The notes below the pieces were generated by a model. The model ran no database searches. It was given only the letters and a program-made list of their open reading frames with translations, and had not been told where the DNA came from. A stretch of 64,000 nt of DNA from Chryseolinea lacunae. GTDB taxonomy: Bacteria; Bacteroidota; Bacteroidia; Cytophagales; Cyclobacteriaceae. Positions within the stretch are counted from its first letter, which is position 1; every line of letters begins with the position of its first letter. The DNA lies in assembly GCF_016735595.1 (NCBI RefSeq), contig NZ_JAERRB010000014.1:1-64000 (forward strand), in the 5' to 3' direction. Shown piece by piece: positions 8,016-41,935 of this stretch. Position numbers and translations under genes: made by a program.

Positions 8016-8930
8016 ATGAATAAAGTAATTCTGGCCGGTGGAAGTGGATTTCTTGGTTCCGTGTTGGCCCGCTATTTTGCCACACGCGCCAAACACGTGG
8101 TGATTTTTAGTCGCAAGCCCCAGCCCGCCGTGGGCAACATCAACACGGTGCAGTGGGATGCGAAACAATTGAACAACACCTGGGTGCGCGAACTGGAAGG
8201 CGCCGATCTGCTCATTAACCTCACGGGCAAAAATGTGAACTGCCGCTACACGGAGGCGAACAAAAAAGAAATTCTAGAATCACGACTCGATTCCACGAAT
8301 GTGCTGGGCCTTGCCCTGCAGCAGCTACAACAACCTCCCCGCGTGTGGATACAAAGTGCGTCCGCAACATACTATCGCCACGCCGAAGACCGTCCCATGG
8401 ACGAGACCACGGGCGAAGCCGGCGAAGGATTTTCGGTGGATGTTTGCAAGGCATGGGAAAAAACATTTGCCGACCAGATCGCACCGCGCACACGAAAAGT
8501 GCTGCTTCGCGTTGGCATTGTGTTGGGCATGGGCGACGGCGCATTTCCCCGCATGCTGAACCTGGTGCGTGCAGGGTTAGGAGGGCGTCAGGGCGATGGC
8601 CATCAGCTCATCAGCTGGATTCATGAAAAGGATGTCGCGCAAATCATGCACTGGCTCTATCAACACGAAACGCTCGACGGCATGTTCAACGTCACGGCGC
8701 CACAACCGGTCACGAACGCGGTGTTTATGGACACCCTTCGCCGGATTTGCAAAATGCCATTTGGTCTTCCTTCTCCCGGTTGGTTGCTGAAACTTGGCGC
8801 GGGGGTTATCGGCACGGAAACCGAACTGATCTTGAAGAGCCGCTGGGTAATTCCGAAACGCTTGCAGCAGGAAGGCTATATGTTTGCTTTCCCTACGCTT
8901 GAAGGGGCATTGAAGGATATTGTAGGATGA
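8016..8930 (+). CDS. TIGR01777-family NAD-dependent epimerase/dehydratase
   Basis: This 304-residue atypical short-chain dehydrogenase of the YfcH/SDR39U1 group has the nucleotide-binding glycine motif LAGGSGFLGSVLARYF at residues 5-20. The INLTGKNVNCRY and IQSASATYY segments correspond to the family's cofactor and active-site strands, and the C-terminal FGLPSPGWLLKLGAGVIG segment is typical of the group. Substrate is unknown across the family. It is the last gene of the GbsR cluster, starting 10 bases after the DCC gene, and a terminator follows at 9003-9034. Confidence 0.85.
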   Translation: MNKVILAGGSGFLGSVLARYFATRAKHVVIFSRKPQPAVGNINTVQWDAKQLNNTWVRELEGADLLINLTGKNVNCRYTEANKKEILESRLDSTNVLGLALQQLQQPPRVWIQSASATYYRHAEDRPMDETTGEAGEGFSVDVCKAWEKTFADQIAPRTRKVLLRVGIVLGMGDGAFPRMLNLVRAGLGGRQGDGHQLISWIHEKDVAQIMHWLYQHETLDGMFNVTAPQPVTNAVFMDTLRRICKMPFGLPSPGWLLKLGAGVIGTETELILKSRWVIPKRLQQEGYMFAFPTLEGALKDIVG

Positions 8931-12503: not shown

Positions 12504-12556
12504 ATCTACTAATCCTATAGATAATGTTGGTAAATAAATTTTTTATACTACTTTTG
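12504..12556 (+). promoter_or_regulatory. Promoter with CTAY-N7-RTAG operator, YceI leader
   Basis: TTG at 12527-12529 and a perfect -7 element TACTTTTG at 12549-12556 are 19 bases apart, an excellent Bacteroidota promoter. Just upstream lies the inverted repeat ATCTAC-N7-ATAGAT (12504-12522), a variant of the repeat found at 16628-16646, 19090-19108 and 21547-21565. The transcript would start near 12563 and carry a leader of about 350 bases before yceI, containing a cysteine-ending small frame. Confidence 0.6.
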
Positions 12557-12688: not shown

Positions 12689-12796
12689 ATGAAGACTGTG
12701 ATTGAACTGAACACGATTTCGAAATTCCACCACACGGCACAAAGCCACGCGCAAAATGCCGCGAACAACACACGCTGCGCCACCGGCTGTTGTTGA
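12689..12796 (+). CDS. Cysteine-ending leader peptide 1 (35 codons, ...CATGCC-stop)
   Basis: The frame begins MKTVIELNTISKFHH, ends RCATGCC, and stops 115 bases before yceI. It is too short for ordinary gene calling. Reasons to take it seriously are its place in the leader of a good promoter and its resemblance to three other small frames in this window that also end in consecutive cysteines. The two last Cys codons (TGTTGT) and the T of the stop form one arm of a hairpin with AACAACA at 12764-12770 (other arm 12788-12794). By analogy to known polycysteine leader frames of mycobacteria, translation may sense cysteinyl-tRNA supply. Here the third cysteine is separate (C-A-T-G-C-C), so it is the weakest of the four. 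Confidence 0.4.
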   Translation: MKTVIELNTISKFHHTAQSHAQNAANNTRCATGCC

Positions 12797-12911
12797 ACAC
12801 CATCAATTTATTTTTTTAACGAACCGATCCGAACCTCCACCGCGTGAAGCCTGGCACGGAAATCGCGTTCCATTCAATTTTTAAAAACACTAAACTATAA
12901 TTTACTAAAGA

Positions 12912-13517
12912 ATGAAAACTCAAATGCTGAAATTCCTCGCCCTGATTGTTGTGGCTTCTGTGGCTGTTGCGTTCACGAACCGTGCGCCACAAACGTATAA
13001 AGTGAGTCCGAAAGAAAGTGCGTTGACGTGGACCGGCAAGAAAGTGACGGGCCAGCACAATGGCACCGTGGCCATTTCCGCCGGTTCGTTGACCTGGGAT
13101 GGAAAAACACTGAAAGATGGCTCGTTCGATATTGACCTGTCGACCATCACAGTGACCGATATCACCGACGCCGATACCAATGCAAAACTGGTTGGCCATT
13201 TGAAAGGTGACGATTTCTTTGGCGTGGCAAAAACGCCAAAGGCCACATTCGTGATCACCTCGGTGACACCAAAAGACGGTAAGTACTGGGTGAAAGGAAA
13301 GCTCACCATCAAAGGCATCACAAACGATTCTGAATTCCCGGCAACGGTGAAAGCCGATGGCAAGAAATTGACCGCCGAAGCCAAGATCATTGTGGACCGC
13401 ACGAAGTATGACATCAAATTCAGATCGACAAACTTCTTCGAAAACCTGGGCGACAAAGCCATCTCCAACGACTTTGAGTTGGATGTGAAACTGGTGGCCA
13501 CTGTTGCCGGTGTATAA
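12912..13517 (+). CDS. YceI-family lipid-binding periplasmic protein
   Basis: This 201-residue protein has a signal peptide (MKTQMLKFLALIVVASVAVA, then FTN). The mature part is an extended lipocalin-like barrel: YKVSPKESALTWTGKKVTG, GSFDIDLSTITVTDI and HLKGDDFFGVAKTPKATFVI are the conserved YceI segments, and KITIKGITNDSEF-like strands follow. Family members bind isoprenoid or lipid ligands; the ligand here is unknown. It lies downstream of a strong promoter, an operator-like repeat and a cysteine-ending leader frame, which ties it to the putative sulfur-responsive set. Confidence 0.88.
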   Translation: MKTQMLKFLALIVVASVAVAFTNRAPQTYKVSPKESALTWTGKKVTGQHNGTVAISAGSLTWDGKTLKDGSFDIDLSTITVTDITDADTNAKLVGHLKGDDFFGVAKTPKATFVITSVTPKDGKYWVKGKLTIKGITNDSEFPATVKADGKKLTAEAKIIVDRTKYDIKFRSTNFFENLGDKAISNDFELDVKLVATVAGV

Positions 13518-13770
13518 AATATTCTGGTTGTAGTTAGGGTAAAGGGATGAGGGGTTCTGTACGTTGGCTAGTCTGAATTTCCTCTCCCTTTCTTTTTCTC
13601 ACCACAAAAGCACTCATTAACCTAGGTGAAAACTCTGGAGGAGGCAGATCAATTTTAGTTGGTTTGCCTCCAAAAGAGCAACGTTGTCAGCAAATGTTTT
13701 TGATCATCTCCACTCCCTTGCCATCCCCCTAACGAAGTCGTAACTTGCTTGCTACCCTAAAAGGAACGCG
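13518..13770. other. Intergenic region between yceI and the FAD oxidoreductase gene
   Basis: No gene or good -33/-7 pair is seen. A 7-base inverted repeat GGAGGCA/TGCCTCC (13640-13646 and 13675-13681) with a 28-base loop is the only notable structure. An AAGGA purine run at 13761-13765 is a likely ribosome binding site for the next gene. Confidence 0.4.
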
Positions 13771-15216
13771 GTGAGTATGAATGATGCTGATGCTATAGTG
13801 GTGGGAAGCGGCCCCAACGGCCTGGCCGCAGCCATCACGTTGCAACAACAAGGCCTGTCGGTTTTGTTGCTGGAAGCCAAACCCACCGTTGGTGGTGGGC
13901 TGAGGTCGGCTGAGCTCACTTTGCCGGGCTATGTTCACGACGTGTGTTCGGCCATCCATCCCCTTGCTTTGGCGTCTCCCTTTTTTCGGACCTTGCCGTT
14001 GCACGACCATGGCCTTGCCTTTGTGCAACCCGCCCTGGCGCTGGCCCATCCGTTTGACAACGGCCGCGCTGTTGCACTCTACCCATCGCTGGCCGAAACG
14101 GCAAAGAACCTCGGCGCTGACGGCGAGGTGTTCCAAACCTTGCTGACATCCATGATTGAACGCTGGCCTGCGGTTGAAAATAATGTGTTGGGACCGTTGC
14201 GTTTTCCATCGCACCCTCTTGCACTGGCAAAGTTTGGATTGAAGGCGTTGCCGTCGGCTATGGCCATGGCGCGAAAATTTTCGACGGCCGAAGCAAAAGG
14301 ATTGTGGGCGGGAATGGCGGCGCACAGCATGCTGCCGCTCGACAGCATGACCACGGCAGCCATTGGCTGGGTGTTGTGCATTGCAGCGTTTCGTGGCGGG
14401 TGGCCGGTGGCCAAAGGCGGGTCGCAGCAAATTGCCAATGCGCTCGCGTCGTATTTTGTTTCCATCGGCGGAAAAATTGAAACAAACACCGAAGTAAAAT
14501 CCCTCAGTCAACTTCCGAATGCAAAGGCTGTGTTGCTGGACGTCACACCCCGCCAGGTGCTGGGCATCGCCGGCCACAAACTTTCGTCGCTCTACACGTG
14601 GCAGCTAAAGCGCTACCGCTATGGCATGGGTGTGTTTAAAGTAGACTGGGCGCTCGATGGTGCTGTGCCGTTTGCGGCCGACATCTGTCGCCAGGCCGGC
14701 ACTTTGCACATAGGGAGTACGTTGGAAGAGATCCGGTTGTCGGAGGCCGCAGCCGCCGACGGACGATATGCGGAGCGGCCCTTTGTGTTGTTTGCCCAGC
14801 AGAGTGTGGCCGACCCAAGCCGGGCACCACAGGGCAAACATGTGGCGTGGGCCTATTGCCACACACCAAACGGGTCAACAGCCGATCGCACCGCCGTTAT
14901 CGAGAAGCAGGTGGAGCGTTTTGCGCCGGGCTTTCGCGACCGCATCCTGGCGCGGCACACGTTGAACTCGGCACAGCTTGAGCAATACAATTTTAACTAT
15001 GTGGGTGGCGACATCAACGGCGGTGTGCTCGACCTCGGGCAGCTCTTCACGCGGCCCGTGCTGCGGGCATCGCCCTATCGCACATCGTTGAAAGGTCTCT
15101 ATATATGTTCTTCGGCCACGCCTCCCGGTGGTGGTGTTCACGGTCTTTGCGGCCACTATGCGGCGCGACGTGCGTTGAAGGATATCTTCGGCATTTCTGT
15201 AAAACCCCTGTTATAA
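13771..15216 (+). CDS. FAD/NAD(P)-dependent oxidoreductase, phytoene-desaturase-like
   Basis: This 481-residue flavoprotein has the N-terminal dinucleotide-binding motif AIVVGSGPNGLAAAITLQQQ (residues 8-27) and the family segment LLEAKPTVGGGLRSAE. The C-terminus carries the second FAD contact LYICSSATPPGGGVHGLCGH. It belongs to the amine-oxidase/phytoene-desaturase superfamily (NAD(P)/FAD-dependent oxidoreductases); the substrate cannot be read from sequence. The start is the GTG at 13771, five bases after AAGGA, or the ATG at 13777. It lies between yceI and the YeiH-type exporter on the same strand. Confidence 0.8.
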   Translation: MSMNDADAIVVGSGPNGLAAAITLQQQGLSVLLLEAKPTVGGGLRSAELTLPGYVHDVCSAIHPLALASPFFRTLPLHDHGLAFVQPALALAHPFDNGRAVALYPSLAETAKNLGADGEVFQTLLTSMIERWPAVENNVLGPLRFPSHPLALAKFGLKALPSAMAMARKFSTAEAKGLWAGMAAHSMLPLDSMTTAAIGWVLCIAAFRGGWPVAKGGSQQIANALASYFVSIGGKIETNTEVKSLSQLPNAKAVLLDVTPRQVLGIAGHKLSSLYTWQLKRYRYGMGVFKVDWALDGAVPFAADICRQAGTLHIGSTLEEIRLSEAAAADGRYAERPFVLFAQQSVADPSRAPQGKHVAWAYCHTPNGSTADRTAVIEKQVERFAPGFRDRILARHTLNSAQLEQYNFNYVGGDINGGVLDLGQLFTRPVLRASPYRTSLKGLYICSSATPPGGGVHGLCGHYAARRALKDIFGISVKPLL

Positions 15217-15275
15217 TTACTATATTTTTTATAACTCGGATTTCCATAACACAAATCGCTTAACCGAAAATCAAC

Positions 15276-16535
15276 ATGGCTGATACAAAAAAAGTGTTGC
15301 TTCACGAAGACTGGGCCGTAGTGGTGCTGGGGTTTGCCATCATCGCACTTTTTCTCCTGGGCCTTGTGGTGCCCGTGCCTTCCTTCTCGTGGAGCTCGGC
15401 CGAAGACCTGACGCAAAAGGTTTTCACCGCCGGAAATCTGATGAAGATCGGCGCGCAATTTATCGTGGTGTTTGTGTTTGCCACGGCCGGTGCCTGGCTC
15501 ACCAACAAGCCGCTGAAATCGTCGCTGTTGGTTTTTCCGGTGGTGTTTCTGCTCACGGTCGTAGCGTTGATCATCGCGGGAAACAAGGGCGTGAAAGATC
15601 TGAACCTGGAAGCTGTTATTTTTAGTCTCACCATTGGGTTGATCATAGGGAATGTATTTAACCTTCCCGCCGGATTTCGCGAAGCCTTGTCCACAGAGTT
15701 GTTTGTGAAAATCGGGTTGGTATTGCTGGGCACGAGTGTGATCTTTTCCGATATATTAAAAGCGGGTGGACTTGGTCTTGTGCAGGCGTTGGTGGTGGTG
15801 CTCAGTGTGTGGTATTTCGCCTTCTGGCTTTGCAAAAAACTGAAGGTCGACGATGAATTGTCGATGATGATTTCGAGTGCCGTGTCCATCTGCGGTGTGT
15901 CGGCAGCCATTGCCACGGCGGGTGCGATAAAGGGCGACACAAAAAAACTTTCGTATGTCATTTCGCTGGTGTTGATCACCGCCATACCCATGATGATCGT
16001 TATGCCCTACATAGCCAAACACTATGGCTTTTCGGAAGAAGTGACGGGCGCGTGGCTGGGGGGCAGCATCGACACCACGGGTGCGGTGGTGGCTTCGGGC
16101 ACGCTGGTGGGAGAGACGGCACTAAAAATCAGCACCATCGTTAAGTTCTCACAAAATGTTTTGTTGGGTCTCGCGGCGTTTGCCATCAGCATCTACTGGA
16201 CCTATGCGGGCAAAGCCACACCGGATGCTGCAGAAAAACAAAAGCCCACATTGAACGTGATCTGGGAACGGTTTCCAAAATTTGTGATCGGGTTTGTAGC
16301 GGCCTCGTTGCTCTTTTCTTTTTTTCTGAGCGCCGAGAAAGTGAGCGCCGTGAAAGACGGTATGAAAAGCATTCAGACCCTTTGGTTTGTGCTGGCCTTT
16401 ACGAGCATCGGCCTGGAAACAAAGTTTTCGGACCTCATCAATTCCAACACACAAAGACCGCTCTATGCCTTTTTGGGCGCGCAGCTGTTTAACATTCTGG
16501 TGACGTTGGTGCTGGCCTATGTGCTGTTTGGCTAA
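15276..16535 (+). CDS. YeiH/UPF0324-family putative sulfate exporter
   Basis: This 419-residue inner membrane protein has about ten hydrophobic helices and the family signatures LPAGFREALSTELFVKIGLV, SSAVSICGVSAAIATAGA and WLGGSIDTTGAVVASG. The family is annotated as putative sulfate exporters on limited evidence. It starts 60 bases after the oxidoreductase gene. The 60-base gap contains CTAT-N7-ATAA (15220-15234), a weak version of the operator-like repeat found nearby. Its sulfur annotation supports the idea that this region handles sulfur. Confidence 0.85.
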   Translation: MADTKKVLLHEDWAVVVLGFAIIALFLLGLVVPVPSFSWSSAEDLTQKVFTAGNLMKIGAQFIVVFVFATAGAWLTNKPLKSSLLVFPVVFLLTVVALIIAGNKGVKDLNLEAVIFSLTIGLIIGNVFNLPAGFREALSTELFVKIGLVLLGTSVIFSDILKAGGLGLVQALVVVLSVWYFAFWLCKKLKVDDELSMMISSAVSICGVSAAIATAGAIKGDTKKLSYVISLVLITAIPMMIVMPYIAKHYGFSEEVTGAWLGGSIDTTGAVVASGTLVGETALKISTIVKFSQNVLLGLAAFAISIYWTYAGKATPDAAEKQKPTLNVIWERFPKFVIGFVAASLLFSFFLSAEKVSAVKDGMKSIQTLWFVLAFTSIGLETKFSDLINSNTQRPLYAFLGAQLFNILVTLVLAYVLFG

Positions 16536-16625
16536 GCAAGTGGCCTTTCAGAAGTATTCTACACGAAAAAGACAGCTTTAAAAAAACAGCGCTAACCATG
16601 CGACTGAAAAAATAACATTAAATTA

Positions 16626-16678
16626 AAGTCTATAAAAACCATAGACTTAATTTGAATTAAGAAATTTTTATATCTTTA
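16626..16678 (+). promoter_or_regulatory. Promoter with CTAT-N7-ATAG operator, hydrolase leader
   Basis: A perfect inverted repeat AAGTCTAT-AAAAACC-ATAGACTT lies at 16626-16648, extended by imperfectly matching ATTAA arms. It is followed by TTTG at 16651-16654 and a -7-like TATCTTTA at 16671-16678 (last base off consensus, gap 16). The repeat lies directly upstream of the -33 element. A second small palindrome CTTAAT-TTGA-ATTAAG (16646-16661) overlaps the -33 word. Confidence 0.55.
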
Positions 16679-16729
16679 CGCCAGAGTTCGGCAGCAAGCT
16701 TGCTGATCGGGCCGGATAAAAACTTTTAG

Positions 16730-16819
16730 ATGCAACACTTTAACACGCACAACGCCATGCAGATGCCCACCTCCGTCTGCGCTATGCCTCGCGGGCATTT
16801 CTATTGTTGTTGCTGTTGA
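16730..16819 (+). CDS. Polycysteine leader peptide 2 (29 codons, ...HFYCCCC-stop)
   Basis: The frame reads MQHFNTHNAMQMPTSVCAMP, then RGHFY and four consecutive cysteines before TGA (Cys codons 16805-16816). It starts about 45 bases after the predicted transcription start and ends 243 bases before the alpha/beta hydrolase gene. The segment CGGCCCG at 16829-16835 can pair either with CGGGCCG at 16708-16714 (in front of the frame) or through GCCCG with CGGGC at 16792-16796 (inside it). Mutually exclusive pairings around a stall site are the hallmark of attenuators. I infer a cysteine-sensing leader; expression is unproven. Confidence 0.6.
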   Translation: MQHFNTHNAMQMPTSVCAMPRGHFYCCCC

Positions 16820-17062
16820 ATGAATGAACGGCCCGTCATAAAATCAAAAAAAATCCCCTCATCATTCTCGAAGCACCCGCTTTAGCTGCGGCGCTGCGGT
16901 AGTGATGCATGGAATAAAGGCAAAATTGAAATTCATACACTAAAGAAAATGGCTGTCGGATGCACCTGCTTGAGAGGCTTATTGGTGGTAGGTCTGTTAA
17001 GAATAGGTGCATTCCGTCGCCACCAATGCCGACGATAGACCACCTTTAAAACGACATTACGT

Positions 17063-17812
17063 ATGAACGCAACACTAGCACTTCCGCATGTTCCTTTGTT
17101 CGACGTGGGCGAAGGCGAACCGATCATTTTGTTGCACGGCCTTTTTGGCAATCTCAGCAACTGGGGTCAGGTAGCGTTCGAGTTCACTTCTACGCATCGT
17201 GTGCTCATACCACGTCTGCCACTATACTCCACACCGCTCTCGCGCGAAAGACTGGACAATCTGGTGGACTACGTAGAAAATTTTATTGAAGAACAAGGCC
17301 TCGACACGGTGACGCTCATGGGCAACTCGCTTGGCGGGCACATTGCGTTGCTCTATGCCTGGCGTCATCCGCAGAAGGTGAAAAAACTGGTGCTGGCCGG
17401 AAGTTCGGGGCTCACGGAGAATTCTTTTGGAGGAACCTTTCCGCGGGTGAGAGACTACGAATACATCCGCGAGCGCGTGGAGAAAACATTCTATAAACGC
17501 GAAGTTGTGACCAAGCAACTGGTGGACGAAGTATACGAAACGGTTCAAAGCCGGCCGAAGACGCTCAGCATCATTAACCTGGCGCGTGCCGCACAACGCC
17601 ACAACGTGGCCGATACGCTACAGAAAATCAAAACACCGACACTGCTGGTGTGGGGACGCCAGGACACCATTACGCCCCCCGAAGTGGCGCTGGAGTTTCA
17701 TGCGTTGCTGCCCCATTCGAAAGTAGTTTTCTTTGATCAGTGCGGGCACGTGCCCATGATGGAGCATCCTAAGTTATTCAATCAGCATGTCAGAGATTTT
17801 CTGGAGTCATAA
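17063..17812 (+). CDS. Alpha/beta hydrolase
   Basis: This 249-residue serine hydrolase of the alpha/beta fold has the oxyanion loop IILLHGLFGNLSNWG near residues 21-35 and the nucleophile in TVTLMGNSLGGHIALLYAW (Ser near 89). The acid lies in LLVWGRQDTITPPEV (Asp near 198), and the base histidine in CGHVPMMEHP (near 228). The pattern is that of meta-cleavage-product or MenH-type hydrolases; the substrate is unknown. Its last 26 bases overlap the next gene, so it is translationally coupled to the sterol-desaturase-like hydroxylase. Its leader contains the four-cysteine small frame. Confidence 0.87.
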   Translation: MNATLALPHVPLFDVGEGEPIILLHGLFGNLSNWGQVAFEFTSTHRVLIPRLPLYSTPLSRERLDNLVDYVENFIEEQGLDTVTLMGNSLGGHIALLYAWRHPQKVKKLVLAGSSGLTENSFGGTFPRVRDYEYIRERVEKTFYKREVVTKQLVDEVYETVQSRPKTLSIINLARAAQRHNVADTLQKIKTPTLLVWGRQDTITPPEVALEFHALLPHSKVVFFDQCGHVPMMEHPKLFNQHVRDFLES

Positions 17813-19022
17813 GGCCGTCAACTACGCCGCGCTGGCAATACCAGCATTTTTTTTATTCCTGGGACTGGAATATGCAGCGGCATTGCGTCAACGAAAAACA
17901 CACCTCTTCAAGTTCGACAGCTCCATCGCGAACATCAGCATCGGCATTGGTGAGCGGTTGTTGAATTTGTTTCTTACGGCGAGCTTCTATGGTGTGTTTA
18001 CCTACCTCTACGAAAATTTTGCCCTCTGGCAAATTCCAAACACGTGGGTAGTGTGGGTGATTCTGTTGCTGGTCACCGATCTGGTGTGGTACTGGTATCA
18101 TCGGCTCGGGCACGAAATCAATTTGTTCTGGGCGGCACACATTGTGCATCATCACAGCGAGGAATTTAACTACAGTGTTTCGGCGCGCATCACCACCATT
18201 CAATCCATTGTGCGCAACCTGTTCTGGGCCTTGCTGCCGCTGGCGGGCTTTCACCCGGCCATGGTCATGACCATTCTGGTGGTGCATGGCACGTATTCGT
18301 TTTTCACGCACACGCAAATGATACGCAAGCTGGGCTGGTTCGAACACGTGCTCATCACGCCGTCGCATCACCGGGTGCACCATGCCTCCAATGAGAAGTA
18401 TCTCAATAAAAACTATGGCGATCTGTTTGTGTTTTGGGACAAGCTCTTTGGCACCTTCCAACGCGAGGAAGAAGAACCGGTTTACGGGTTAACCCATCCG
18501 TTGAAAAGCTACAGCTTCATCTGGCAGCACTTTCATTATTTCATGGAGATCTTCTATGCCACCTCCCAGGAGAAGGGCATCGTTAACAAACTGAAAATAA
18601 TTTTCGGGAGTCCCGAAACGCTGGATCAAAACATCCGCCCCATGCTGGAGCAACGTTTCATTCCCAACCAGCATGATACCAATCCGCGCAAGCGTTTCAA
18701 AGCCTATCTGGTCATCCAGGTATTGCTGGCGGTGGCCGTACTTTTCCCTGTTACGTTATTTTATCAGGACATTGCCCTGCTCGAAAAAGTAGTGGCCGCA
18801 TTTTTCATTCTCATCACGCTGGTGAATTGTGGTGCCCTGCAGGAACAACGGCGGTGGATCTATTACCTGGAATACCTGCGTTTGCTGGTGGTGGTGACCT
18901 ATGTGTCGTATCGGATGAATAGCCCGGAGCTCTTGGTTTGCACCGTGTTCATCAGCCTATTGGTGATCTGGCCTTTGCAGAAGTGGTACTTCCGGTTGGT
19001 CTATGGCGTGCAGGAACGCTAA
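17787..19022 (+). CDS. Sterol desaturase/fatty acid hydroxylase family protein
   Basis: This 411-residue membrane di-iron oxygenase shows the histidine clusters of the family: HRLGH (near residue 109), HIVHHHSEEFN (near 119-127) and HHRVHHASNEKYLNKNYG (near 194). Several transmembrane helices lie at the N-terminus and four more after residue 300. Such enzymes hydroxylate or desaturate lipids in the membrane. It begins inside the hydrolase gene (26-base overlap), so the pair probably acts in one pathway. Substrate is not deducible. Confidence 0.88.
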   Translation: MSEIFWSHKAVNYAALAIPAFFLFLGLEYAAALRQRKTHLFKFDSSIANISIGIGERLLNLFLTASFYGVFTYLYENFALWQIPNTWVVWVILLLVTDLVWYWYHRLGHEINLFWAAHIVHHHSEEFNYSVSARITTIQSIVRNLFWALLPLAGFHPAMVMTILVVHGTYSFFTHTQMIRKLGWFEHVLITPSHHRVHHASNEKYLNKNYGDLFVFWDKLFGTFQREEEEPVYGLTHPLKSYSFIWQHFHYFMEIFYATSQEKGIVNKLKIIFGSPETLDQNIRPMLEQRFIPNQHDTNPRKRFKAYLVIQVLLAVAVLFPVTLFYQDIALLEKVVAAFFILITLVNCGALQEQRRWIYYLEYLRLLVVVTYVSYRMNSPELLVCTVFISLLVIWPLQKWYFRLVYGVQER

Positions 19023-19059
19023 AAAAATAAAATAAAATTAATCGAAACTTAAAAAGCAC

Positions 19060-19108
19060 TTGCTCCGTTTCAGAATTAATATTATGTTTGTCTATCGATT
19101 TAGTAGAC
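19060..19108 (+). promoter_or_regulatory. Promoter with downstream operator, S-box leader
   Basis: TTG at 19060-19062 and a perfect -7 element TATGTTTG at 19083-19090 are 20 bases apart. The inverted repeat GTCTAT-N7-GTAGAC (19090-19108) covers the expected transcription start near 19097, a position suited to repression. The transcript runs into the S-box at 19128. Confidence 0.65.
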
Positions 19109-19127
19109 ATTAAAAAACTGAATCAGA

Positions 19128-19228
19128 TTTATAAAGAAGAGGGGAGAGAACAGGCTCTGTGAACCTCTAGCAACTTTCTGGAAAGAATAAGTGCTACATC
19201 CTGCCCGAAACCAAAATGGGTATATAAA
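19128..19228 (+). promoter_or_regulatory. SAM-I (S-box) riboswitch
   Basis: All S-box stems can be drawn: P1 TTTATA/TATAAA (19128-19133, 19223-19228), P2 GAGG/CCTC (19139-19142, 19164-19167) with inner AGAG/CTCT (19145-19148, 19155-19158), P3 CTTTC/GAAAG (19174-19178, 19181-19185) and P4 CCC/GGG (19204-19206, 19218-19220). The conserved single-strand words GTGAA, GCAAC and GTGCTACATCCTGCC are in the right order. S-boxes bind S-adenosylmethionine and normally switch off methionine and sulfur genes. Here the aptamer ends 12 bases before a polycysteine leader frame, and the first full gene is a PhyH dioxygenase. The expression platform is not clear. Confidence 0.85.
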
Positions 19229-19240
19229 ACGAAGAACAAC

Positions 19241-19330
19241 ATGAGAACATCGAACCAACCTCTGCATCCATCGTCACACCGCCTCGCCTTTTCTATGTGT
19301 CGAAGCCTGACAACCCGCTGTTGTTGTTAA
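19241..19330 (+). CDS. Polycysteine leader peptide 3 (29 codons, ...TTRCCC-stop)
   Basis: The frame reads MRTSNQPLHPSSHRLAFSMC, then RSLTTR and three cysteines before TAA (Cys codons 19319-19327). It begins right after the S-box P1 stem and ends 222 bases before the PhyH gene. The hairpin GCTGT/ACAGC (19317-19321, 19333-19337) encloses the cysteine codons and stop. A second hairpin GATGACG/CGTCATC (19374-19380, 19397-19403) follows. Position behind a SAM riboswitch makes a cysteine- or sulfur-sensing role the simplest reading. Translation is unproven. Confidence 0.6.
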   Translation: MRTSNQPLHPSSHRLAFSMCRSLTTRCCC

Positions 19331-19552
19331 CCACAGCACCTCCTTTTTCATTCTAGAAGTCTTGTTCACGGCCGATGACGCATCGGTGTGTGGCTTCGTC
19401 ATCTCTATAATCATTTCGAAACCTTAACGTCATCTGGCTATGTCATTTGTGTGCACTTTCGTGCGATGTTGATGAGATCGACATTACACGTACCAAACCC
19501 CATCATTACACGGACCTATATCGAATACATCACCACCAAAATTTGAAACACC

Positions 19553-20401
19553 ATGTCATCGTATAAAAAATTCACATTCCAGGGCGAACTCACCGAAGAA
19601 CAACTTCAATTCTTTACCAAAAACGGATTTATTCATTTTGAAAACTATGCTTCACGCGAAACAGTAAACGACATCTTGCAGTCTACCGAAGATGTGCAGC
19701 GCCGCTGGATCGCCAACGGTGTAGACAAAGTGAATGGCATTCCCATCAAATACGGACAGGACGTTGACGGAAACAAAATTGTGCAGCGTTTTGCATTCAC
19801 CAACCAACACAGCGACGCCGTGCAGCGCTTCGCCTCGAACCCGAACCTGGATGTGTTGAAAGCCCTCATGCCCAAAGGCGCGCGCCTGGGTCTGCAAGAA
19901 AAAGACGGCGTGGTGTTCAACCACTATGTGAACACCGAAGGGAGCAACTTCTATCACATGGGCTGGCACACCGATAGCGCACGCGACATCTTCTATGGCA
20001 AAAAGGTAGCGCCCATGCTGAACATCGGTTTCTATCTCGACGACTCCACGGCGGCAAAAGGTGGACTCCGTGTTTTGCCGGGCACACACAAACAAAGTCT
20101 TTGGGATTTGTTGTTCCGCAAAAAATATTATCTCAACAACTACGCCGACGAAAACGAAGTGCTGGTGGAAGCCAAAGCCGGCGACCTCGTGATTCACGAC
20201 GGACGCATCTGGCACCGCGTGGCGCCTTCGCCTGTGACGGGCGAAGCCAGCCGTCGCCGCGTGATGTACATTCCCATGATTGTGGGCAAGTTCAAACCAA
20301 AAACACAAGAGAGTGCCACGCCGCTTTATCTGCACCTGCTGCCGTTTGTGGGAACCAAGAAGCATAAGAACTTGATTCCGGCATTCCGCAAAGCCGCATA
20401 A
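19553..20401 (+). CDS. Phytanoyl-CoA dioxygenase (PhyH) family protein
   Basis: This 282-residue non-haem iron/2-oxoglutarate dioxygenase has the iron ligands in HMGWHTDSARD (His139, Asp141) and the distal histidine in VIHDGRIWHRVAP (probably His221). A basic cluster (SRRRVMY, near 233-239) provides the 2-oxoglutarate contact. Family members hydroxylate lipids, amino acids and many natural products; the substrate here is unknown. The gene is read from an S-box leader with a polycysteine small frame, unusual for this family and suggestive of a sulfur-linked substrate. A strong hairpin follows at 20408-20433. Confidence 0.85.
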   Translation: MSSYKKFTFQGELTEEQLQFFTKNGFIHFENYASRETVNDILQSTEDVQRRWIANGVDKVNGIPIKYGQDVDGNKIVQRFAFTNQHSDAVQRFASNPNLDVLKALMPKGARLGLQEKDGVVFNHYVNTEGSNFYHMGWHTDSARDIFYGKKVAPMLNIGFYLDDSTAAKGGLRVLPGTHKQSLWDLLFRKKYYLNNYADENEVLVEAKAGDLVIHDGRIWHRVAPSPVTGEASRRRVMYIPMIVGKFKPKTQESATPLYLHLLPFVGTKKHKNLIPAFRKAA

Positions 20402-20407
20402 AAAAGA

Positions 20408-20440
20408 GGCTGTCAGCAAATGTGCTGACAGCCGTTTCTC
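20408..20440 (+). terminator. Hairpin terminator between PhyH and ATP-grasp units
   Basis: A perfect 11-base stem GGCTGTCAGCA/TGCTGACAGCC (20408-20418, 20423-20433) has a 4-base loop, followed by GTTTCTCC. The T-run is weak, so termination may be partial. No promoter is visible between it and the next small frame at 20465. Confidence 0.6.
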
Positions 20441-20464
20441 CTTGAAGTATCAACAAAAAAATAA

Positions 20465-20548
20465 ATGCATATCGCGATCACCCATTTTTTAAGCCTGAAT
20501 CTTCGTGCAGCCGGCAGAATCCTGCCAAAGGCACACCGTTGTTGCTAG
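20465..20548 (+). CDS. Cysteine-ending leader peptide 4 (27 codons, ...KAHRCC-stop)
   Basis: The frame reads MHIAITHFLSLNLRAAGRIL, then PKAHR and two cysteines before TAG. It starts 31 bases after the hairpin at 20408-20433 and ends 79 bases before the ATP-grasp gene. It shares the basic residue-then-cysteines end with leader 3. It may act as a leader peptide of the ATP-grasp gene, transcribed by readthrough or from a promoter I cannot see. With only two terminal cysteines it would be unremarkable alone; the clustering with three others raises it. Confidence 0.45.
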   Translation: MHIAITHFLSLNLRAAGRILPKAHRCC

Positions 20549-20627: not shown

Positions 20628-21536
20628 ATGTTCACCCTTATTGAAAAACCCATTGGCATTTTCTATGGTCACGAAGAGTGGTTCAATCCATTGTTCCGCG
20701 AATTGGAGCGTCGTGAATTGCCCTATGTGAAACTGAACCCGGCCCGGCAATGGTTCGACCTGGGCGAAACGGAAACACCCTATAGCCTGGTGTATAACGA
20801 CATGAGTTTCCCATCGTATGCCGATGGCCCATCGTCGTCCAACCTAAGCCTGTCGGCCTATTTTAGTTACCTGGAGCAGCAACGCGTGCCTGTGATCAAC
20901 GGATCGGCAGCCATCGCGTTGCAACAAGCCAAAGTGCAACAGCTGCTGTTGTTGAAACGACTGGGCCTTGACTTTCCCGACACACGCGTCATCACGCACC
21001 TCAGTCAATTGAAGAAGGCGGGCGACGTGTTGATCTTTCCCGTGCTCATCAAAGGCAATGCCGGCCTGGGCAACGAAACCGTGCTTGTGCAATCTCTTCA
21101 ACACCTGCGCGAGAGCCTGGAGGACGGAACACTGGCCCTGAGCCAACAAACTCCGTGGCTGGTGCAGCAGTGGATTCCCGCCAAGGGCCATCATGTGGTT
21201 CGGGCGGAAGTGATTAATGGAAATTTTCAATATGCCGTGAAACTGCATCGCCCGCAGCATGACCTCGACCTGCGCACAGCCGATGCAGAATGGTTTGAGC
21301 CGACGCACAGCGTGGTGAAAGCCGTGGAGGCTATCGCGCGTGAGGCACGGCTGGAAGTGGCCAGCGTGGAATATGCCGTGGATCGCCGCGACAATAAACC
21401 CTATTTCTATGCTATTCACGCGCATTCCAACTTTGTGGCCCTTCCTCAACGCCATGGATATGACCCTTATGCCGCCCTGGCCAGCCATATTGAGGCCAGG
21501 CTTCAAAAACGGCGCGAAATTGAATTGGTGTTATAA
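20628..21536 (+). CDS. ATP-grasp enzyme (RimK/GshB-like)
   Basis: This protein of 302 residues has the ATP-grasp features FPVLIKGNAGLGNETVLV (near residue 140) and an acidic C-terminal metal site around VASVEYAVDRRDNKPYFYAI. ATP-grasp ligases join a carboxylate to an amine or thiol through an acyl phosphate; RimK-like members add amino acids to peptides, and glutathione synthetase is related. The specific substrate is not deducible. The ATG at 20628 (MFTLIEKPIGIFYGHEEWF) is chosen; the frame opens at 20505 in the leader. It follows a cysteine-ending small frame and precedes a TonB receptor. Confidence 0.75.
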   Translation: MFTLIEKPIGIFYGHEEWFNPLFRELERRELPYVKLNPARQWFDLGETETPYSLVYNDMSFPSYADGPSSSNLSLSAYFSYLEQQRVPVINGSAAIALQQAKVQQLLLLKRLGLDFPDTRVITHLSQLKKAGDVLIFPVLIKGNAGLGNETVLVQSLQHLRESLEDGTLALSQQTPWLVQQWIPAKGHHVVRAEVINGNFQYAVKLHRPQHDLDLRTADAEWFEPTHSVVKAVEAIAREARLEVASVEYAVDRRDNKPYFYAIHAHSNFVALPQRHGYDPYAALASHIEARLQKRREIELVL

Positions 21537-21611: not shown

Positions 21612-24524
21612 ATGAACCGTTTGTATTCCCTTCTCTTCCTGCTCTCGTTAGCCTCCGGAGCCTGGGCCCAGTCGCCCGCGGTGCTAACCGGAAAAATAAC
21701 CGACGGCGAAACCCAGGAACCCCTTGCCGGTGTGAACATCCTTATTAAAGGCACTGTGACCGGAACCGTAACCGATCTGGAAGGAAACTTCAGCCTCAAA
21801 ACAAAATCGCTGCCCATAACATTGTCGGCATCTTTTATTGGTTTCAAAACACAGGATGTGACGGTGACATCGGCCGACCAGACCATCAACCTCGTGCTGG
21901 AACCCAGTGCGCTGTTGGGCTCGGAGGTGGTGGTGACCGCTTCGCGTGTGGAGGAGTCGCAGTTGAAATCGCCCGTAGCCATCGAGAAACTCGATACGCG
22001 CGCCATCCGCGATTCGCCTGCGCCCAGCTTTTACGACGCGTTAGAAAACGTGAAAGGTGTGCAGATGACCACCTCAAGCCTCACGTTTAAAGTGCCCAAC
22101 ACCCGTGGCTTCAATATTCCCAACAACTTCCGCTTCATGCAAGTGGTGGACGGTGTAGACATGCAGGCTGCCACATTGGGTGTGCCCCTGGGAAATGCCA
22201 TCGGCCCCACGGAACTCGATATTGAAAGCGTGGAAATAACTCCCGGAGCAGCTTCGGCCCTCTATGGCATGAACGCCATCAACGGTATGGCTAACCTCAT
22301 CACGAAAAGCCCTTTCCTGTATCAAGGCCTCAGCCTATATCAAAAAACCGGCGTGAACCACGTGGACGGGATCGACTACGATCCCAGCGTGCTGTCTGAA
22401 ACCGCCGTGCGCTATGCGCATGCCTTTAATAACAAAGTGGCTTTTAAAGTGAACGGCAGCTACCTGCGTGCCACCGACTGGCGCGGCAACACGGGCACCG
22501 ATCAGAACCCGAACGGAACCCCCGGCACCGGCAACCCGAACTATCCCGAATTGAATGTGGCCGATCATCCGGCCTACGACGCCTGGAATAAATATGGCGA
22601 CGACAGCGGAAGCAACGCGGTGACGGTGAGTGGTGTGACCTATAACGGTGCGCCCAATCAATCGTTCGTAGTGAGAAGAACCGGCTATTGGGAGAAAGAC
22701 CTCGTGCCCGGCAAAGTAGACAATAAAAAATTCGACGCGGCCATTCACTATCGCATTGGCAGCAACGCTGAGCTTTCGTACGCCTATCGCATTGGTGAAA
22801 TGGATGGTCTGTTTCAGCGGGGAAATAAAATCCAGCTGAACAACACGCGTGTACAGAATCACAAACTGGAATTGAAAGGTGCCAATTATTTTGTGCGCAC
22901 CTATGTGTCGCTCGAGAACACGGGCGACTCCTATAACCTGAAACCTTTGTCTGACAACCTCGATTTGTCGCATTTGTCAAACAAAGACTGGACAACCAAG
23001 TTCAAGAATTCATTGCAAACCGAATTGAATGGTGGCACCGACCTGGCCGAAGCGATGCGTCGCGCCCGCGCGGCAGCCGATGCCGGAAGAGCAGAGCCCG
23101 GCACACCTGAATTTGATGCGTTGAAAAAAGAAATCATCAGCATCAATAACTGGGACCACATCAGCGCAGTGCCCACAGGAACACAAACCGGTGGCGCGGC
23201 CCTGAATCAAAAGAGCCGTATGTATCATGCCGATGCACAGTGGGATCTTTCAAAACAGGTAAAATATTTCGACCTGTTAGTGGGCGCGGACTTCCGCATC
23301 TATGAGATCATTCCCGATGGAAACAACTTCGTGGAGTTTTCGAGACCCATTGCCGAACGCACACAGCCCGAAGACGACGGCAGCTTTGGCAACAATGTAT
23401 ACTACAAGAAGTATGGATTTTTCTCGCAGGTGACCAAGACGTTTTTCAAAGAGAAGCTGAAGATCTTCGGATCGCTTCGCCTGGATCATAATCTTGAATT
23501 CACGCCGAAGCTTAATCCACGGATAGCAGCCGTGTATACGGTGGCTGAAAAACACAACTTCCGCGCTTCCTTCCAGAATGGATTCCGGTTCCCGTCCTTG
23601 TTCGAAGCCTTGTCGTTTGTGAACAACGGAAACATCCGTCGCGTGGGCGGCCTGCCCTACATCAACGACGGTCTGAACTATCTCGACAATTCGTACACGC
23701 TGGCTTCCATCAACACCTTCAACGCGGCGGTGAACACCGACGTGAAGGGCGGTCTTTCTTTGACCGACGCGGCCTATAAAAACCGTGCACTGCTGGAAGT
23801 GACCAACTTGTCGGCCACACGTCCCGAGCGAATCAATTCGTTTGAAGTTGGCTACAAGAGCGTGCTGTTCGACAACACACTGGTGATCGACATCGATGCC
23901 TACACCAATCAATACGACGGTTTCCTTGGTCAGGTGGAGGTGGCTGTGCCATACTTGACCACCGACGGAAAATATCCTGACGACAACCAGCAAGTGCAGG
24001 TGGGATCGGACGCCGCCGTGATTTCGATGTTGGCTGCAAACCGCACCCCGCGTCAGAAACGTTATCGTGTATACACCAACGCCAAGCAGAAGTATAACAA
24101 CTATGGCTCGTCGCTGGGAGTGACTTATAATTTCTTCAAGAAGTTCACCGTAGGTGGAAACCTCAACTACAACAACATCTCGTCTAACACGGAAAAAGAT
24201 GTGTTTGTGACAGGTTTCAATACCCCCAAGTGGGCGACCAACATTTCGTTTGGAAATCGTGAAGTGGTGAAAAACCTTGGCTTCAACGTGGTGTACAGAT
24301 GGCAACAGTCTTTCCTCTGGGAGAGCCCATTGGCCAACGGCTCCATTCCGGCCTATCACACCTTCGACGCACAAGTGTCTTACAAACTGCCTGAGCTGAA
24401 GTCGACTTTCAAACTGGGTGGAACCAATATTTTGAACAATCGCTACATCCAGTATGCCGCGGGTCCTACCATCGGCGCACTGTATTACTTCTCCATCACC
24501 GTCGACGGATTGTTGAAGAAGTAG
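21612..24524 (+). CDS. TonB-dependent outer membrane receptor
   Basis: This 970-residue protein has a signal peptide (MNRLYSLLFLLSLASGAWAQ) and an N-terminal carboxypeptidase-regulatory-like domain (about residues 25-105; VLTGKITDGETQEPLAGVNI). A plug domain follows (about 110-240; EVVVTASRVEESQLKSPVAI, TPGAASALYGMNAINGMANL), then a large beta barrel. It imports a substrate across the outer membrane with TonB energy. No SusD partner lies next to it, so the substrate may be a small molecule or chelate rather than a glycan. It is located in the putative sulfur region and shares the operator-like repeat. Confidence 0.92.
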   Translation: MNRLYSLLFLLSLASGAWAQSPAVLTGKITDGETQEPLAGVNILIKGTVTGTVTDLEGNFSLKTKSLPITLSASFIGFKTQDVTVTSADQTINLVLEPSALLGSEVVVTASRVEESQLKSPVAIEKLDTRAIRDSPAPSFYDALENVKGVQMTTSSLTFKVPNTRGFNIPNNFRFMQVVDGVDMQAATLGVPLGNAIGPTELDIESVEITPGAASALYGMNAINGMANLITKSPFLYQGLSLYQKTGVNHVDGIDYDPSVLSETAVRYAHAFNNKVAFKVNGSYLRATDWRGNTGTDQNPNGTPGTGNPNYPELNVADHPAYDAWNKYGDDSGSNAVTVSGVTYNGAPNQSFVVRRTGYWEKDLVPGKVDNKKFDAAIHYRIGSNAELSYAYRIGEMDGLFQRGNKIQLNNTRVQNHKLELKGANYFVRTYVSLENTGDSYNLKPLSDNLDLSHLSNKDWTTKFKNSLQTELNGGTDLAEAMRRARAAADAGRAEPGTPEFDALKKEIISINNWDHISAVPTGTQTGGAALNQKSRMYHADAQWDLSKQVKYFDLLVGADFRIYEIIPDGNNFVEFSRPIAERTQPEDDGSFGNNVYYKKYGFFSQVTKTFFKEKLKIFGSLRLDHNLEFTPKLNPRIAAVYTVAEKHNFRASFQNGFRFPSLFEALSFVNNGNIRRVGGLPYINDGLNYLDNSYTLASINTFNAAVNTDVKGGLSLTDAAYKNRALLEVTNLSATRPERINSFEVGYKSVLFDNTLVIDIDAYTNQYDGFLGQVEVAVPYLTTDGKYPDDNQQVQVGSDAAVISMLAANRTPRQKRYRVYTNAKQKYNNYGSSLGVTYNFFKKFTVGGNLNYNNISSNTEKDVFVTGFNTPKWATNISFGNREVVKNLGFNVVYRWQQSFLWESPLANGSIPAYHTFDAQVSYKLPELKSTFKLGGTNILNNRYIQYAAGPTIGALYYFSITVDGLLKK

Positions 24525-24685: not shown

Positions 24686-25570
24686 ATGGAAGCAGCCGAT
24701 AAAAGTTTGTTGAACCGGAGAGCGATTGTGGGTGTGATTGCCGGGGCCGTGGTGTTGCTGGTATTGGTTGTTTTTTCTTTTTCTGATGGGCTGTGGGAAG
24801 ACACCACCGCGCTGGTGTCTGGCATTGGTCCGGAGTTTTTCATTTTTGTGTTGGGCGGGTTCATCGCCCAAATGATCGATGGTTCGCTGGGCATGGCCTA
24901 TGGCGTGAGTGCGTCAACGTTTTTGTTGTCGTTTGGCGTGCCGCCTGCGGCGGCGAGTGCCAGCATTCACACGTCGGAGATCTTCACCACGGGTGTTTCG
25001 GGATTGTCGCACCTTCGTTTTCAGAATGTAAACAAAAAACTTTTCCGCAGCCTGTTGTTGCCGGGCATCGCGGGTGCCGTGGCGGGCGCTTATATTCTTT
25101 CCTCGTTTGAGGAATACAATACATACATCCGACCGATTGTGGCAGCCTACACGTTGGTGCTGGGTGTTGTGATTGTGCGCAAAGCGGTTCGCAAAAGTCA
25201 ACCAAAGACCAAGACGCGGAACATTCCGGCGCTGGCAACCTTTGGCGGTTTCATGGATTCTATTGGCGGAGGCGGCTGGGGACCCATTGTGGCGTCGACG
25301 CTGATCGCGAAGGGAAGAAGTCCGCGCTACACCATTGGCTCGGTGAACCTGGCGGAGTTCTTTATTTCCACCTCCAGTTCCATCACATTTTTTGCCACCA
25401 TTGGGGTGAGCTATTTTCAAATTATTGCCGGCCTTGTTCTGGGCGGAATCATTGCTGCGCCCATTGCCGCACACCTCACCCGAAAGCTGCCCGTGAAAAA
25501 AATGATGATCGTGGTGGGTGTGGTAGTCATCCTGGTGAGCATCCGGCTTATCGTGAAGGCGTTTGTTTAA
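24686..25570 (+). CDS. TauE/SafE (TSUP) family sulfite exporter-like protein
   Basis: This 294-residue membrane protein with about eight helices has the two TSUP repeats FIAQMIDGSLGMAYGVSAST (near residue 58) and FGGFMDSIGGGGWGPIVAST (near 188), with the typical ASASIHTSEIFTTGVSGLSH segment. TSUP members export or import sulfite, sulfonates or related organosulfur anions. It begins 161 bases after the TonB receptor and is the last gene of the region. Together with the YeiH-type exporter it gives the region two sulfur-transport annotations. Confidence 0.87.
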   Translation: MEAADKSLLNRRAIVGVIAGAVVLLVLVVFSFSDGLWEDTTALVSGIGPEFFIFVLGGFIAQMIDGSLGMAYGVSASTFLLSFGVPPAAASASIHTSEIFTTGVSGLSHLRFQNVNKKLFRSLLLPGIAGAVAGAYILSSFEEYNTYIRPIVAAYTLVLGVVIVRKAVRKSQPKTKTRNIPALATFGGFMDSIGGGGWGPIVASTLIAKGRSPRYTIGSVNLAEFFISTSSSITFFATIGVSYFQIIAGLVLGGIIAAPIAAHLTRKLPVKKMMIVVGVVVILVSIRLIVKAFV

Positions 25571-41835: not shown

Positions 41836-41935
41836 AGATGGGCTCGCGGTATATAGAACCAGCAATTTATACATTAATTGCAGGACATGTAACACGTGTA
41901 AGTTTAAACAAATAAATTACTTAGCCCGGCTGTTG

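Follow-up and report, generated by a model that had tools for sequence, protein, structure and literature searches.

A 64,000-nucleotide stretch of contig NZ_JAERRB010000014.1 of Chryseolinea lacunae (hereafter the window) carries, ahead of a PhyH-family dioxygenase gene, a predicted SAM-I (S-adenosylmethionine) riboswitch aptamer directly followed by a short open reading frame (ORF) that ends in consecutive cysteine codons, and the same arrangement recurs in Bacteroidota behind one subtype of SAM-I aptamer, ahead of metY and other sulfur genes. The leader ORF is very likely a sensor of cysteine and methionine. The best explanation of the whole arrangement, and in our judgment a probable one, is that SAM would gate translation of the leader and that a ribosome stalled at its terminal Cys codons would turn the sulfur gene on. 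The elements concerned in the window are the following:

12689..12796, + strand: leader frame 1, 35 codons, ending in GCC before the stop, 115 nucleotides (nt) ahead of yceI
16730..16819, + strand: leader frame 2, 29 codons, ending in CCCC before the stop, 243 nt ahead of the alpha/beta hydrolase gene
19126..19230, + strand: SAM-I riboswitch aptamer, UUUAU-P1 subtype (RF00162, 71 bits, E 1.4e-14)
19241..19330, + strand: leader frame 3, 29 codons, ending in CCC before the stop, 222 nt ahead of the PhyH gene
20465..20548, + strand: leader frame 4, 27 codons, ending in CC before the stop, 79 nt ahead of the ATP-grasp gene

The initial annotation, made from the window alone, had described these four Cys-ending frames as leaders. 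Their ends, strand and distances to the genes are all as it described them, but it had overlooked the riboswitch ahead of frame 3, whose covariance score of 71 bits exceeds the Rfam gathering score of 44.4 and whose end lies 10 nt before the start of the frame. No SAM-I aptamer was found adjacent to frames 2 and 4 in the Rfam scan of the window. Frame 3 is a full device, composed of aptamer and Cys leader, and frames 2 and 4 are leaders with no detectable SAM-I aptamer. Within 42 upstream non-coding segments (8,416 nt) the four are the sole ATG frames of 15–60 codons with two or more Cys codons before the stop. When these segments were dinucleotide-shuffled, such frames numbered 0.04 on average, with at least one in 4% of cases and four in 0 of 400; the observed number thus exceeds chance in a check of the kind that the annotation had proposed. 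A fifth Cys-ending frame, at 38278, is antisense and lies within a large gene (36505–41895). We consider frames 3 and 4 solid and frame 2 likely to be a leader; frame 1, the weakest of the four, is doubtful as one.

A class-wide SAM-I search covering 60 genomes, 43 of them with a match and part of the listed matches being taken further, hinted at a division between two aptamer subtypes, one followed by Cys leaders and the other by metH, in many cases with a terminator. We analyzed the upstream regions of metY in a sample consisting of the best 80 of 586 loci in titled records, chosen without regard to leaders. SAM-I aptamers are present in 66 of these 80 loci, 58 being of the UUUAU-P1 type and 8 of the CUUAUC type. 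Using a rule blind to cysteine, which allowed the leader to start from -3 to +25 nt relative to the aptamer end, a leader ORF was found next to the aptamer in 55/58 UUUAU-type sites and in 0/8 CUUAUC-type sites. The start falls 6–11 nt past the aptamer in 48 of the 55 leaders, which are 23–64 codons long. Two consecutive Cys codons (CC) occur in 38/55 and three (CCC) in 33/55, to be compared with means of 1.4 (maximum 5) and 0.04 (maximum 1), respectively, in 100 dinucleotide shuffles in which any ORF was counted. The genome of the window has the device at its own metY, which is preceded by a SAM-I aptamer and a leader ending in MCCCCAARCC; behind the riboswitch of its metH, that rule finds no leader.

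The codons concerned are concentrated at the end of the ORF and locked to its frame. Cysteine accounts for 33.6% of the final 12 codons of the 55 metY leaders vs. 2.0% of the leader body (17-fold), and methionine 11.2% vs. 1.5% (7.5-fold). Among the 38 leaders with CC, the distance from the last CC to the stop has a median of 0.5 codon (range 0–15). Both Cys codons are used (146 TGT, 105 TGC), and doublets within the last 12 codons are found for C in 37 leaders, S in 5, I in 3, M in 3, and V and L, the residues that the letters of the tract would read in the other frames, in 1 each. As in leader attenuators, a short ORF lies in the 5' leader and its in-frame regulatory codons are cognate to an amino acid of the pathway. 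A Cys-run leader device in Bacteroidota, as the initial annotation had proposed, finds support in conservation, in the shuffles and in this frame-locked enrichment, except that the residues sensed look like cysteine plus methionine rather than cysteine alone. Among the 17 metY leaders without CC, several have alternating Met codons and several others, mainly from Algoriphagus and its relatives, have weak tails. The leaders L177, L178, L183, L187, L195 and L202 have Met codons at the end, alternating in some, and not Cys runs; such Met-ended leaders suggest sensing of methionine, or mixed sensing.

A second layout appears in 4 of the 8 CUUAUC-type metY loci (L130, L134, L157 and L170), where a Cys-rich leader of 24–27 codons lies about 170 nt before metY and the aptamer lies far from it, 482–556 nt before the gene. 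SAM-I is missing from 14 metY loci. In 4 of them some CC frame of 8–90 codons lies within 500 nt; the other 10 show none over that distance, and one of these ten holds just 67 nt of upstream sequence. It follows from the CUUAUC-type and the SAM-less loci that the Cys leader is tied to metY beyond one aptamer subtype and that the close pairing is tied to UUUAU.

The comparison was extended to a wider set made of the metY sample, SAM sites from the class-wide and other searches, and hand-picked ones favouring genomes with many sites, giving 183 distinct sites out of 185 after removal of two duplicates (L086 and L205 were excluded for short flanks). By P1 type, 112 are UUUAU, 65 CUUAUC and 6 unclassified. 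CC leaders stand behind 73/112 UUUAU vs. 1/65 CUUAUC aptamers (Fisher p 1e-19), and terminator-like sites show the reverse distribution (3/112 vs. 34/65, p 4e-15). Downstream genes were assigned by short motif expressions, ten of them being scanned with Pfam as well. Beyond the metY sample, 36 UUUAU sites with a CC leader precede metY (21), metX (4), TonB (2), cysH (2), sulfite reductase (2), ATP-grasp (1) and unassigned genes (4), and the 20 UUUAU sites at which the ATG rule finds no CC leader precede metY (6), permease (4), metX (3), ATP-grasp (2), cysH (2), TonB (1) and unassigned genes (2). The CUUAUC-P1 sites beyond the metY sample stand ahead of metH in 45 of 58 cases. There are two SAM-I subtypes in Bacteroidota, CUUAUC-P1, found mostly ahead of metH outside the metY sample, and UUUAU-P1, found ahead of metY and other sulfur genes. 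The initial annotation had expected control of a non-classical gene set; the device is not restricted to such genes, its commonest partner in these samples being metY, accompanied by metX, cysH and sulfite reductase.

Conservation of the window loci was analyzed in two species of the same genus (G001 and G002), with about 74–82% DNA identity in long aligned blocks. At the PhyH locus the SAM-I aptamer is kept in both and the leader ends in CCCC, its peptide body being largely different. At the ATP-grasp locus both have a leader with CCC at the stop, and at the hydrolase locus the aligned frame keeps CCC internally and extends 11 codons beyond the Cys run. The yceI gene and frame 1 are absent at the corresponding place, and the yceI orthologue found elsewhere in the G002 genome has the promoter palindrome described below and no CC frame in the scanned stretch. 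The conservation that the annotation had made its test is therefore found for the Cys runs of frames 3 and 4, partly for that of frame 2, and not for frame 1. More distant homologues of the ATP-grasp gene also have the device: one (G031) has a SAM-I aptamer and a leader with seven consecutive Cys codons, the other (G048) a SAM-I aptamer and a run of five Cys codons followed by three more codons, in a leader that fails the ATG rule, there being no ATG beside the aptamer. In nine distant loci of PhyH homologues (L065–L073) the coding strand holds no ATG frame that ends in CC, and SAM-I is absent from L065 and L068, the two of the nine that were searched for it. A second cluster of G002 contains two SAM sites with leaders ending in CCHS and CCC, together with genes for an amino-acid dehydrogenase, a thioredoxin-like protein, an alpha/beta hydrolase, an ATP-grasp protein, a luciferase-like monooxygenase, YceI, an Rrf2 protein and a sulfatase. 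Since the hydrolase, ATP-grasp and yceI homologues sit there with the sulfatase, the luciferase-like monooxygenase and Rrf2, the genes of the window look like parts of a set for scavenging sulfur sources.

These data can be arranged into a mechanism. High SAM would close P1 beside the leader start, the leader would then not be translated and the downstream transcript would be silenced, whereas low SAM would permit leader translation. The terminal Cys (and Met) codons would read the charging of tRNA-Cys (and tRNA-Met): with plentiful cysteine the ribosome would reach the leader stop and depart, and with scarce cysteine it would stall on the Cys run at the stop and cover the RNA behind, so that the sulfur gene is expressed. 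Because the starts sit 6–11 nt behind P1 in 48 of the 55 metY leaders, closing of P1 should hinder leader initiation. Whether such an arrangement in series extends through the phylum is a more tentative matter. It is conceivable, and somewhat short of an even proposition, that throughout Bacteroidota the SAM-I aptamer gates a leader reading Cys and Met, with AND-type logic, the genes being on only if SAM and the charged tRNAs are both low; with the same reserve, the attenuator might itself be the expression platform of the riboswitch.

Silencing would work through Rho-dependent attenuation similar to that of tnaC, a part of the proposal that we advance with still more caution. A terminator-like site is present in only 3/53 leader-to-metY stretches, on which ground classical terminator-based attenuation was rejected. 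Translational coupling of the leader to the gene was rejected as well, since some 100 nt or more commonly separate the leader stop from metY. The leader-to-metY stretches have a C/G ratio of 1.70, compared with 1.06 for 87 upstream regions taken as controls (p 9e-12), a measure of composition only. With so few intrinsic terminators, and with much C and little G behind the leader, Rho is favoured over a classical terminator switch; a form acting on translation is conceivable too. Moreover, the RNA just past the leader stop pairs downstream better than its shuffles (mean z -0.82, 46 loci).

Several observations weigh against the proposed relay of SAM through the leader. Some Cys leaders have no SAM aptamer beside them (frames 2 and 4, and the four metY loci of the second layout), so that the relay is not universal, and the finding that 4 of the 8 CUUAUC-type metY loci have the Cys leader nearer to metY slightly lowered our confidence in the series arrangement, which had been evenly balanced. 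CC is missing from 17/55 metY leaders, the ATG rule detects no CC leader at 39/112 UUUAU sites, the hydrolase frame of the congeners continues for 11 codons past its Cys run, and 2 of the 66 SAM sites lie as far as 1.5–1.7 kb before metY, so that they may act on a different gene. As a sign of Rho the richness in C is indirect, and a second measure, taken just behind the two aptamer types, shows a smaller contrast (1.30 vs. 1.04). The pairing signal is modest, far-upstream windows also giving z values of -0.28 to -0.47, and RNAalifold applied to six groups found no common switch and recurrent hairpins in Pedobacter only. Part of the 183-site set was hand-picked, related sequences in the counts are not independent and the statistics ignore kinship. 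Finally, the device is a prediction from sequence.

Some of the same observations would suit a riboswitch and a Cys leader that act independently, giving additive control with no relay of SAM through leader translation. Leaders lacking a detectable adjacent aptamer exist (16730 and 20465 in the window), and in the four metY loci with the CUUAUC aptamer at 482–556 nt and the Cys leader at about 170 nt before the gene, a terminator-like site lies behind the aptamer in three (L130, L134 and L157). Independence leaves unexplained why UUUAU leader starts cluster 6–11 nt behind P1 (48/55), and it would require another platform for an aptamer that has a terminator in only 3/112 UUUAU sites and no other riboswitch platform visible; we regard it as unlikely, though deserving serious attention. 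It is very unlikely that the tract is a nucleotide-level RNA motif, one strand (GUUGUUG) of a stem, that is not read as codons. The tract can indeed pair with downstream CAACA-type segments in several loci, and the pairing exceeds that of shuffles, but it keeps to the reading frame of the leader (a C doublet in 37 leaders, a V doublet and an L doublet in just one each), adjoins the stop, varies between T and C at third bases and has Met codons enriched beside it.

That the frames encode functional small Cys-rich proteins and are not attenuators would fit the persistence across the phylum of ORFs of 23–64 codons with Cys-rich ends; their bodies are hardly conserved even between congeners, only the end and the position being retained, which makes this reading most improbable. 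Least credible of all is that the four frames of the window are chance ORFs. The bare string of three Cys codons and a stop occurs genome-wide at 83 places vs. 48 for the reversed pattern, a moderate enrichment, and most of the 30 of these 83 loci that were inspected look incidental; the count was set aside as evidence of little value, the string alone being weak for this reason and position and context being what counts. A single frame like frame 1 is seen in 4% of shuffles. Four frames, on the other hand, arose in 0/400, the Cys runs of frames 3 and 4 persist in the congeners and frame 3 is joined to a riboswitch. Chance is contradicted for frames 3 and 4 and might account for frame 1, which is doubtful.

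Gating of leader translation by SAM, with stalling at the Cys codons, can be compared with several known systems. Canestrari et al. 2020 reportedly described polycysteine short ORFs, leaderless ones, as cysteine-responsive attenuators in mycobacteria. The leaders described here likewise consist, as do the actinobacterial ones, of a short ORF with a Cys run near the stop ahead of sulfur genes, the run adjoining the stop (median 0.5 codon). Unlike the mycobacterial ones, they belong to another phylum, often lie directly behind a SAM-I aptamer and are enriched in Met too; as the SAM-linked leaders follow an aptamer of about 100 nt and would not be leaderless, we do not class them as members of that group. 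The tnaC leader of Escherichia coli, which acts by Rho attenuation, senses free tryptophan. As in tnaC, a ribosome halted at the leader end would mask a Rho site behind it; unlike tnaC, codon starvation is proposed here and the role of Rho is putative.

Cys leader peptides have been predicted in Actinobacteria, where, according to the accessible part of the source, Mycobacterium has no conserved terminator hairpins, Rho is proposed instead and tnaC is named (PMC1262725). The uORFC-8-2 motif ahead of cysS in Rhodobacterales is an upstream ORF with tandem Cys codons, as here, for which ribosome-mediated attenuation is proposed (PMC8632094); the available portion of its description gives it an intrinsic terminator and mentions no riboswitch, whereas terminators are rare here (3/53). 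Riboswitch platforms act on transcription or on the ribosome site (PMC2258182); unlike the platforms in the accessible part of that classification, in which no case of a riboswitch with a leader was found, the element after SAM-I is here a leader ORF. The SAM-II riboswitch of Sinorhizobium metA controls translation at a distance and is similarly tied to an upstream start codon (PMC9373788); it belongs to another class, and the part of the source available describes no amino-acid-sensing leader. For Flavobacterium psychrophilum, the extract of the source contains clues for leader-peptide attenuation ahead of amino-acid operons, with no tie to cysteine (PMC9723704). Among the matches listed in a literature search, whose coverage left out most subscription papers, no title or abstract opening reports a Cys leader coupled to a SAM riboswitch. 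As far as the accessible parts of these sources go, they place Cys leaders in Actinobacteria and in Rhodobacterales and treat SAM-I riboswitches as switches complete in themselves. If the series arrangement of riboswitch and leader in Bacteroidota is true, it would be a natural two-input RNA gate, a gauge of sulfur, it would explain the near lack of terminators in one SAM-I subtype, and it would offer a direct handle on the control of sulfur limitation in these bacteria, in which Shine-Dalgarno sites are rare.

The genes that surround the leaders in the window are the following:

12912..13517, + strand: YceI-family gene (PF04264)
15276..16535, + strand: YeiH-type (putative sulfate exporter) gene (PF03601; TIGR00698 match below cut-off), no leader frame found
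17063..17812, + strand: alpha/beta hydrolase gene (PF00561)
17787..19022, + strand: fatty-acid-hydroxylase family gene (PF04116), overlapping the hydrolase gene
19553..20401, + strand: PhyH-family dioxygenase gene (PF05721)
20628..21536, + strand: RimK-like ATP-grasp gene (PF08443)
21612..24524, + strand: TonB-dependent receptor gene
24686..25570, + strand: TauE/SafE sulfite-exporter family gene (PF01925)

Two of these neighbours, the YeiH-type gene at 15276 and the TauE/SafE gene at 24686, belong to families linked to sulfur export. A second PhyH-like gene of the same genome is present as fragments with an internal stop (G000:C7:144873-145187).

Two further kinds of element were found around the leaders:

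12505..12521: 17-bp palindrome TCTAY-N7-RTAGA, in the promoter region of the yceI leader
16629..16645: the same palindrome, retained in G001 and G002
19091..19107: the same palindrome, retained in G001 and G002
16947..17027, + strand: conserved structured RNA, candidate pseudoknot, between leader 2 and the hydrolase gene

The palindrome occurs exactly three times in the window, each time ahead of a leader (frames 1, 2 and 3), and the same half-sites at the other spacings from 3 to 11 do not occur there, save one at spacing 6. It was rejected as part of the riboswitch device, since none of 107 SAM sites (88 + 19) has it within the preceding 160 nt. Elsewhere it is found in four metY loci (L131, L157, L159 and L199), and it is also present in L062, L063, L064 and L320, and ahead of sulfur-linked genes in congeners. 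An Rrf2-family regulator encoded in one palindrome cluster (L320:8275-8727) is a candidate for its binding protein.

The SAM-like stretch seen by eye on contig C2 of the same genome (L064, about 8530–8660), ahead of a leader with five Cys codons at its end, had no Rfam match at E up to 5 and is possibly an aptamer variant. The structured RNAs of the window and of L064 gave no Rfam match at the gathering score, and none at these places up to E 5. The RNA of the window has 86% identity to G002 and 85% to G001, with a folding z of -4.9; by eye, its segments are ordered A-B-A'-B', as in a pseudoknot, and similar letters appear behind the five-Cys leader on contig C2 (L064, about 8831–8930).

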